Assembly (NCBI GenBank): GCA_026705295.1
Contig: JAPPBA010000161.1
Coordinates: forward strand, 1-39,238
Reading direction: 5' to 3'
Source: Candidatus Palauibacter australiensis
GTDB lineage: Bacteria > Gemmatimonadota > Gemmatimonadetes > Palauibacterales > Palauibacteraceae
Length of the DNA stretch: 39,238 nucleotides
The notes beneath the pieces are model-generated. The model did no database searches. It had not been told where the DNA came from and saw only the letters and a program-made list of their open reading frames with translations. Of this stretch, positions 35,703-37,500 are shown one piece after another. Position numbers and translations under genes: made by a program. Positions within the stretch are counted from its first letter, which is position 1; every line of letters starts with the position of its first letter.

Positions 35703-36272
35703 TCAGGGATCCGGCCACACGGCCGGGTCCCGCTCCATCTCCGGCTCCGGTTCGACGCCGAGTGCCTCGACCATGCGCACATAGTAGTTGAAGAAGCCGA
35801 CGATCTCGGTCGCGGTCAGGATCTGCGCGTCAGTCCAGCCGACCTCCCGCAACCCGTCGATGTCCCGACGAGCGGTGGAGGTCGGCTCGCGCGTGATCGC
35901 CACCGCATAGTCCATCAGTCGGCGCGTCTTCGCGTCGAGCGCCGCCGTCCGATAATCGATCCGGATCGCGCGCGCCAATTCGTCATCTCCCGTGGCCTGA
36001 CGGAGATCCTCTCCGTGCGCCTCCGTTCAGTAGAAACAGTCGAGTTCGCGCGAGGTCACGGTCGCGAGCATCTCGCGCACGTCCCGCCCTAGCGGTCCCG
36101 GCGCCAGCATCAACGCCTCGTAGAGCTGGATCGAGGCGCGCATCACGGGCGGGTTCAGGCTCTGGATGCCGATCACGTTGAAGACGCGCCCCGCGCGGCG
36201 GACGGCCTTCTCGTACTCGCGGGCGAGAAGCCCGTCCGCTTCGTCGGGAGCTACCGTCTCGATATGCGGCAT
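35703..36272 (-). CDS. AhpD-like (CMD family) peroxidase-related protein, predicted selenoprotein with in-frame UGA
   Basis: The reading frame is open over 190 codons except for a TGA at 36029-36027 (codon 82). It falls at the second position of the AhpD redox motif: Cys79-Phe-Tyr-UGA, then TEAHG, matching the family's CxxCxxxHG. Both halves match the AhpD/carboxymuconolactone decarboxylase fold (N: RAGRVFNVIGIQSLNPPVM, PLGRDVREMLATVTSRELDC; C: DAKTRRLMDYAVAITREP, ATEIVGFFNYYVRMVEALGV), and 189 residues is normal length. AhpD-like CxxU selenoproteins are an established bacterial family. A SECIS-like hairpin follows the UGA. Probable role: thiol/selenol peroxidase or reductant of peroxidase. 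Strong GCAGGAGG before ATG 36272. It lies 59 bases after the hydroxyproline dehydratase gene on the same strand. Confidence 0.85.
35994..36029 (-). promoter_or_regulatory. Bacterial SECIS-like hairpin after the UGA
   Basis: Reading the minus strand, the UGA ends at 36027. After 10 bases come ACGGAG (36016-36011), loop AGGAT (36010-36006) and CTCCGT (36005-36000), a perfect 6-bp stem. GGC (36021-36019) and GCC (35996-35994) extend it across an internal loop. The apical loop starts 17 bases after the UGA and has G at its second position, which fits the published bacterial SECIS rules (loop 16-37 bases away, G in the first two loop bases). Confidence 0.75.
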
Positions 36273-36331
36273 CTTGCCTCCTGCAGGCGACGGATCCGGG
36301 GTTCAGAACCAGCTCGTCGGCGGGCACCCGC

Positions 36332-37360
36332 TCAGCGTACGAGGAAGCCGTCCCACCACGGATCCTCCGGATCGACGAGGAACTCGTGGCGGCCCGTAAC
36401 CCAGGCCCGGCCGCCGACCTCCGGCACGACGGCCGCGTGGCCGCCGACTGTCGTCGTGTCCACGACGCGGCCGCTGAACCGGCCGCCGATGATGCTCTCG
36501 ACGATGATCTCCGAATCGCCGGAGTACTCCCCGCGCGCGCGAAGGATGGCGAGGCGGCCGCTCACGGCGGTCCCGGTCGGACTTCGGTCGAGTTCCCCGT
36601 CCGCGAAGATGCAGACGTGCCGCGAGTGGTGTGCGGCGTCGGCCGCCGCCCCCGTGAACACGGTGCCGTAGAGAAACCCGAGATCCGGATCGTCCGGATG
36701 CGAGATGTGATCCGCGGCGGACGAAGATACTGCGTGTGTGATCCGGCGACCCGCTTCGATGAGGTCGGCGCCGCCGCCCGGAGTGAGCGAGAGCCCGAGC
36801 GCATCTGCATCGACGTAGGCGTAGAAGGCCCCGCCGAAGGCGAGGTCGTATGACACCGTACCCAGCCCCTCGACCTCCACGGCCCGCCCCAGCGCGGGCG
36901 CGAAGGACGGCACGTTGAGGAACCGAACCTCCCGGACCCGCTCGCGATCCAGGATGGCGGTGGCGCGCACGAGCCCGGCGGGCGTGTCGATCGTCACGGG
37001 CCGCTCCCTGCCCGACCCGTCGATCCAGCCGGCTTCGACGGCGATCTTCGCCACGCCGATGATCCCGTGACCGCACATCGTCGAGTAGCCCTCGTTGTGC
37101 ATGAACAGGACGGAGAAGTCCGATCCGGACCGCACGGGAGGCATCACGAGGCAGCCGTACATGTCCGCATGCCCTCGCGGTTCCCACATCAGCGCCCGGC
37201 GGAGTTCGTCGTGGTCCGCCCGCGCGACGCGCCGCCGGGCGAGGACCGTGTCTCCCTCCAGCTCCGGGAAACCCGCCACGATGACGCGCAGCGGCTCTCC
37301 CTCGGTGTGGGCGTCGATCGTCTCGATGCGAAGCCAGTGTTCGGGCGCGGTCCAGGTCAT
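36332..37360 (-). CDS. Proline racemase superfamily protein, probable trans-3-hydroxy-L-proline dehydratase
   Basis: 342 residues. The superfamily has two active-site residues: Cys96 in STMCGHGIIG is kept, but the second, Cys in proline racemase and hydroxyproline epimerase, is Thr262 in DRSPTGTAVSG. The Cys/Thr pair is the mark of trans-3-hydroxy-L-proline dehydratase (EC 4.2.1.77), which makes pyrroline-2-carboxylate, so that is preferred to racemase or epimerase. ATG 37360 has GAGGAG 5 bases upstream and starts near the family N-terminus. It lies upstream of the selenoprotein gene on the same strand, divergent from the aquaporin gene with a strong hairpin between. Trans-3-hydroxyproline is found in collagen-type material; a role in host-collagen use is speculation. 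Confidence 0.85.
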   Translation of the reverse strand: MTWTAPEHWLRIETIDAHTEGEPLRVIVAGFPELEGDTVLARRRVARADHDELRRALMWEPRGHADMYGCLVMPPVRSGSDFSVLFMHNEGYSTMCGHGIIGVAKIAVEAGWIDGSGRERPVTIDTPAGLVRATAILDRERVREVRFLNVPSFAPALGRAVEVEGLGTVSYDLAFGGAFYAYVDADALGLSLTPGGGADLIEAGRRITHAVSSSAADHISHPDDPDLGFLYGTVFTGAAADAAHHSRHVCIFADGELDRSPTGTAVSGRLAILRARGEYSGDSEIIVESIIGGRFSGRVVDTTTVGGHAAVVPEVGGRAWVTGRHEFLVDPEDPWWDGFLVR

Positions 37361-37431
37361 GTGAACTCCTCGGTGAAGCAGTGGCCCCCGTCGACGGGAT
37401 CGTCGTATGCTGGCGTCGCTGATCTTACGCC

Positions 37432-37459
37432 CCGCCGCCGAAGTCCGCTTCGGTGGCGG
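37432..37459. promoter_or_regulatory. Strong 12-bp hairpin in the aquaporin/hydroxyproline dehydratase gap
   Basis: Arms 37432-37443 and 37448-37459 pair at 12 positions (one G-U on the plus strand), with tetraloop TCCG. It is 41 bases upstream of the aquaporin ATG and 72 upstream of the dehydratase ATG. A smaller 5-bp hairpin (CGACG-GGAT-CGTCG, 37392-37405) lies beside it. It could be an RNA leader structure or an operator. Confidence 0.5.
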
Positions 37460-37500
37460 CTCGCCGTGCCGCACGATGATCGATCGCCAAGGGGGAAGGC

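Follow-up and report, generated by a model that had tools for sequence, protein, structure and literature searches.

An AhpD-like gene of Candidatus Palauibacter australiensis with an in-frame TGA in its redox motif very probably encodes a selenoprotein

A gene on the minus strand of contig JAPPBA010000161.1 of Candidatus Palauibacter australiensis (39,238 nucleotides, referred to as a whole as the window) appears to carry a selenocysteine (Sec) codon at the heart of its redox motif. With a probability that we put at about 95%, it is best explained as an AhpD-fold redox enzyme of the TIGR01926 family whose UGA codon 82 is read as Sec, and which most likely reduces peroxides. Its family, its predicted fold, the exchange of TGA with Cys codons among homologues, a hairpin following the TGA, the Sec machinery of the genome and selection on both sides of the codon are all supported by computation. 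That the cell inserts Sec, how the enzyme works and what it acts on are inferred. Because the machinery, the TGA/Cys exchange, the fixed place of the hairpin, purifying selection and an association with selA point the same way, the gene very probably encodes a selenoprotein that is translated.

From an ATG at 36272, the frame comprises 189 codons, including one TGA, ahead of a final stop that is itself TGA (35705..35703, Table 1). A first-pass annotation, made from the sequence alone, had described an uninterrupted frame of 190 codons with a single TGA at codon 82. The single frame and the place of its TGA stand, but the length given counts the final stop, and the strand, which was left unstated, is minus. 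With TGA written as U, the protein reads MPHIETV...SRELDCFYUTEAHGEDLRQ...WPDP, and its motif, C79-F-Y-U82-T-E-A-H86-G, has U where CxxC-x3-H has its second Cys. The ribosome site and the fragmentation by ordinary gene calling that had been predicted are both seen: AGGAGG precedes the ATG, and a mechanical list of open reading frames contains the gene only in pieces, such as 36027..36272 (81 aa) and 35703..35978 (91 aa, with a TTG start). The upstream neighbor, which resembles proline racemase or trans-3-hydroxyproline dehydratase, is kept in nine of ten genus-level loci from named records; its listed start in the window is probably too early. Elsewhere in the window, a second TGA between long open frames (17255, minus strand) was rejected as a Sec codon. 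It is an ordinary gene boundary, between the end of a multicopper oxidase gene and an amidohydrolase gene that begins 48 nt later.

Table 1. Features of the AhpD-like locus, in window coordinates
Feature	Position	Strand	Remarks
Sec-containing AhpD-like (TIGR01926) gene, probable	36272..35703	minus	189 residues, U at 82; stop TGA included in span
In-frame TGA, codon 82	36029..36027	minus	putative selenocysteine codon
SECIS-like hairpin ACGGAGA-GGA-TCTCCGT	36000..36016	minus	positions 14-30, the T of TGA being 1
Probable ribosome binding site AGGAGG	36282..36277	minus	4 bases before ATG
Proline racemase / hydroxyproline epimerase-like gene	36332..37474	minus	immediately upstream, same strand

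With Cys substituted for Sec, the protein matches the peroxidase-related enzyme model TIGR01926, a family marked by CxxC (or CxxU) followed by x3-H, at 126.5 bits (cut-off 81.8) over model positions 4-178 of 178. It also matches the carboxymuconolactone decarboxylase-like CMD family PF02627 (41.2 bits, cut-off 23). C79, position 82 and H86 are invariant across 18 aligned rows, as is the TGA column in the 18 rows from this genome and its relatives. Membership failed for two further models. The CFYUT stretch is shared by the name of NF041238 (AhpD_rel_CFYUT; hypothetical protein 1 of the Sargasso Sea), but the gene is not a member, with a score of 42.6 bits (cut-off 175) and a match confined to positions 218-341 of 357. 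The likeness to Sestrin (PF04636; Sestrin-2) in sequence and fold is distant, and its score of 25.6 bits lies under the Pfam gathering cut-off of 29.4.

An AlphaFold model, again with Cys for Sec, has a mean pLDDT of 94.8 and matches the structures 6k40, 2pfx, 3c1l, 2oyo and 2prr with Z scores of 24.4-24.7 over 176-184 residues at 26-31% identity. Fainter by fold is the match to the debrominase Bmp8 (6ohi, Z 19.1, 178 residues, 14% identity). The best match, 6k40 (Z 24.7, 182 residues, 31% identity), is an AhpD-like protein of Deinococcus radiodurans, which we take to be DR_1765. That protein, as described in passages of PMC8945050, has CxxC where the present gene has CxxU. The peroxidase-related proteins 2pfx (residues 18-178, 91 bits) and 2oyo (residues 18-181, 85 bits) are similar in sequence as well, but their residue aligned to position 82 is Cys. 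Together with other Cys homologues they place the TGA exactly at the second redox Cys, as had been proposed.

We compared codon 82 in 100 distinct homologues and found TGA in 89, TGC in ten, TGT in one and no other codon. These sequences (111 matches minus 11 duplicates) are not a random sample, having been fetched by likeness to the Sec-form query and supplemented with ten listed rows without a stop and one more; two Cys homologues (L090 and L091) were too distant and lie outside the count. A first count split frames at TAA and TAG and so could not have seen either at codon 82; with all stops read through, so that both could have shown, the result was the same (89 + 11). The 30 loci of a separate search of named genomes all have TGA at codon 82; their records carry the names Gemmatimonadota, Acidobacteria, Planctomycetota, Latescibacterota, Zixiibacteriota, Chloroflexi and others. 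At 90-96% identity, the nine nearest named relatives are all MAGs, under the names Candidatus Palauibacter, Gemmatimonadales or Gemmatimonadetes bacterium.

The protein is matched in 42 of 60 genomes (its own and relatives) and, across the phylum, in 139 of 298 genomes at E<=1e-12. Among the 150 match rows listed in the phylum survey, counted by eye and with the TGA position checked only in fetched rows, 140 contain one or more internal TGA codons and ten are free of stops. TGA scattered elsewhere in homologues, a concern of the first-pass annotation, is uncommon: by eye, four of these 150 rows have two TGA codons, and two have a TAG besides the TGA. One relative (L135, G305:C209) has TGA at the codon aligned with 82 and GGAAU for CxxU, its resolving Cys apparently lost. 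Two Acidobacteria records (L062, near 7202, and L063, near 7000, both minus) hold a second AhpD-like TGA gene, with CHYUTESHAEFLRR, which lies roughly 1 kb away from the first and is encoded on the other strand.

Selection acts on both sides of the codon. In 13 sequences of the genus (78 pairs), dN/dS is 0.148 in codons 1-81 and 0.160 in codons 83-188, and this near-equality indicates equal constraint before and after the TGA. Synonymous divergence falls to 0.047 in codons 83-92, the site of the hairpin, compared with a dS of 0.220 in codons 1-81 and 0.294 in codons 93-188.

The claim that this genome decodes UGA as Sec is supported by its gene content. The assembly (3.58 Mb in 188 contigs, 95.5% complete) encodes tRNA-Sec (79.7 bits; ARAGORN also calls a tRNA-SeC with anticodon tca), selA (488.1 bits), selB (376.9 bits) and selD (370.3 bits), each above its cut-off, and selA, selB and tRNA-Sec lie together on contig C39. 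The selD gene (C123:5588-6514, minus) has one in-frame TGA, read as GAGUACKLG, so SelD itself is likely a selenoprotein. The genome also holds a second, more distant AhpD-like gene (C176:5322-5798, plus) with a TGA in CRYUIVHHGEG and a hairpin of its own, of the first of the two layouts described below.

The form of the codon goes with the machinery across genomes. Among 30 chosen genomes, selA is absent from all eight that have only Cys forms and present in all ten that have the TGA form (0/8 versus 10/10; Fisher P 2e-5 for this chosen set). tRNA-Sec was found in eight of the ten TGA-form genomes, G023 and G036 being those in which it was not found, and seven of the eight Cys-only genomes lack it, the other (G285) giving a marginal match of 50.1 bits. 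A genome with one form of each kind (G021) has both selA and tRNA-Sec. In the remaining 11 of the 30, the protein had no counterpart above the thresholds applied, and five of these genomes have both genes. SelB exceeds its cut-off in 53 of 60 relatives; four of the other seven, G023 (a fragment only), G036, G039 and G045, nevertheless carry TGA forms. G045, which is 99% complete, thus combines a TGA-form AhpD gene and selA with no SelB above the cut-off, as do G036 and G039.

Starting 10 nt after the TGA, the RNA can form a hairpin with a 7-bp stem and a GGA loop. Hairpins in the homologues fall into two layouts, a first, which is that of the present gene, with 17 nt between the TGA and the loop, and a second, found chiefly in a group with TQAHAHDLR, with 24 nt. 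Both fit the geometry of the bacterial SECIS model as set out in part of PMC13188914, its energy limit aside: an apical loop of 3-9 nt with G in the first two loop positions, an upper stem of 4-16 bp, and a distance of 16-37 nt from the UGA. Tested over all 89 Sec and 11 Cys forms at a strict threshold, a hairpin is present in one of the two fixed places in 83/89 Sec forms and 0/11 Cys forms, with both layouts having been picked by eye from the same sequences. Other in-frame offsets gave a hairpin in zero to four of the 89 Sec forms each. The looser threshold that was used first gave 85/89 and 3/11. Six Sec forms fit neither layout at the strict threshold, and four at the looser one.

Base pairing is also preserved within each layout. 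Once repeated 42-mers were removed, 41 of the 47 sequences with the first layout and 28 of the 38 with the second remained, and in both alignments the share of pairs formed and the covariation score were above all 500 shuffles and all slides; these alignments were chosen by a pairing threshold, and their shares of pairs formed therefore lean towards structure. Columns 17/27 of the first layout hold G-C in 35, C-G in five and G-U in one of the 41 rows, with none broken, and the five C-G rows are related and so may reflect one event. The CTC to CTG change there is silent in a Leu codon and follows a Gly-to-Ala change three codons earlier. In the second layout, columns 24/37 hold C-G in 22 and U-A in six of 28 rows, again with none broken. 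Two of five measures for the first layout were not above shuffling, namely double-change pairs (178/500) and further pair types (367/500). Synonymous re-coding of the gene's own codons reaches seven pairs in 0.7% of 3000 trials.

Plain folding energy, by comparison, fails to separate the two forms. The median percentile within the gene is 0.235 for 89 Sec forms and 0.087 for ten Cys forms, such that Cys forms, if anything, fold better, and against synonymous re-coding 17/89 Sec and 2/11 Cys forms reach 0.05. A permissive Rfam search around the gene gave ten matches, all below gathering scores, with a best E of 0.45. The SECIS assignment rests on the hairpin in its fixed place, not on folding energy.

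Several explanations other than Sec must be weighed against these data. One genome alone cannot tell a Sec codon from a nonsense mutation, and the open reading frame list does give two pieces; the TGA might then be an ordinary stop in a pseudogene, with its downstream half decaying. Such a recent mutation, which the first-pass annotation had already thought improbable, is extremely unlikely given that 89 of 100 distinct homologues, from records of several phyla, share the TGA at this codon, the rest having Cys and none TAA or TAG, that dN/dS is equal on both sides, and that the genome has the Sec machinery. A sequencing error turning TGC into TGA is conceivable in an assembly as fragmented as this one, but we give it negligible weight, as all 30 loci in separately named records show TGA at codon 82, and the hairpin accompanies TGA forms in one of its two fixed places and is missing from Cys forms.

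It is very unlikely, too, that a changed code or a suppressor makes the TGA stand for Trp, Cys or some other residue. The frame would be open under any sense reading of TGA, but the gene's own final stop is TGA, only Cys codons substitute for it in the homologues read, and tRNA-Sec, selA, selB and selD are all present. We therefore reject a pseudogene, a sequencing error and general TGA reassignment on the basis of codon conservation, dN/dS and the terminal TGA.

If codon 82 is decoded as Sec, SelB and tRNA-Sec would read the UGA, with insertion directed by the hairpin that starts 10 nt after it. The second Cys of the AhpD CxxC is the nucleophile, and Sec82 would replace it, with Cys79 as the resolving thiol. 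The protein would then most likely reduce peroxides, or pass electrons to a peroxiredoxin, by way of a Cys79-Sec82 selenenylsulfide that is formed and re-reduced; Sec at the second position may provide a faster selenol nucleophile, resolved by Cys79. The function is most likely that of a selenol/thiol peroxidase or disulfide reductase. According to passages of PMC8945050, AhpD either reduces organic peroxides directly or transfers electrons to AhpC, and, as cited there from the literature, loss of the AhpD-like protein makes a D. radiodurans mutant more sensitive to H2O2, and both Cys of the CxxC matter.

A selenoprotein that serves chiefly for something other than peroxide reduction seems to us unlikely. 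It might be a reductive dehalogenase akin to Bmp8, for instance, or reduce disulfides on behalf of another enzyme. In favor of such a role, Bmp8, whose AhpD fold the model also matches, is a marine enzyme, deiodinase is a Sec enzyme, and the order to which the nearest named relatives belong is known from sponges, corals and sediments. The AhpD-like and peroxidase-related structures nevertheless match better, some TGA relatives are from records whose names point to groundwater or other sources, and nothing in the analysis ties the gene to brominated compounds.

Selenoproteins of this kind are already in print, as the first-pass annotation had held. In the relevant portions of three papers, an 'AhpD-like protein, CxxU' appears with 27 sequences from the Sargasso Sea in 2005 (PMC1088965), an 'AhpD-like 1' with 299 sequences from GOS in 2008 (PMC2398784), and AhpD-like CxxU under TIGR01926 in a 2026 review (PMC13188914). 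A review of 2022 covers the kind as well. The present gene therefore belongs to a known selenoprotein family (TIGR01926 / COG2128), sharing with it, as far as those portions describe it, the family model, the CxxU and a SECIS after the UGA. It differs from those accounts in coming from a 95.5% complete Gemmatimonadota genome with its machinery, and in Cys forms being tied to the absence of selA. What our analysis may add is this genomic setting, the breadth of occurrence in the phylum, the link between Cys and selA and the two SECIS layouts, any of which could have been published earlier. Among the papers listed in literature searches, none had a title on Sec or selenoproteins in Gemmatimonadota/Gemmatimonadetes or sponge symbionts, a result that concerns those titles only and is no claim of absence from print; 'seleno' and 'selenium' are absent from the main text of the Palauibacterales paper.

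The distribution of the two forms raises the possibility, which we advance only tentatively, that Sec is the standing and perhaps ancestral state of this TIGR01926 branch in Gemmatimonadota and several other phyla, served by two SECIS layouts, with Cys derived alongside loss of the machinery. Trees favor neither state as ancestral, with one label change on 99 rows and two on 98 rows; in the latter, two Cys homologues from the PDB were added, three long-branch rows (L095, L135 and L081) were left out, and long branches meet at the changes. One partly masked sequence (L096) was left out of both the trees and the hairpin alignments. If this proposal is true, the enzyme would be unusually dependent on Sec, and not a member of a family where Cys is now and then upgraded to Sec.

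The finding would correct an annotation, since reading the TGA as a stop splits the gene both here and in its TGA-bearing relatives. Two SECIS layouts within one family could also help to improve SECIS models. Furthermore, a single phylum that has the enzyme in both a Sec and a Cys version offers a natural experiment on what Sec buys an AhpD-like enzyme.
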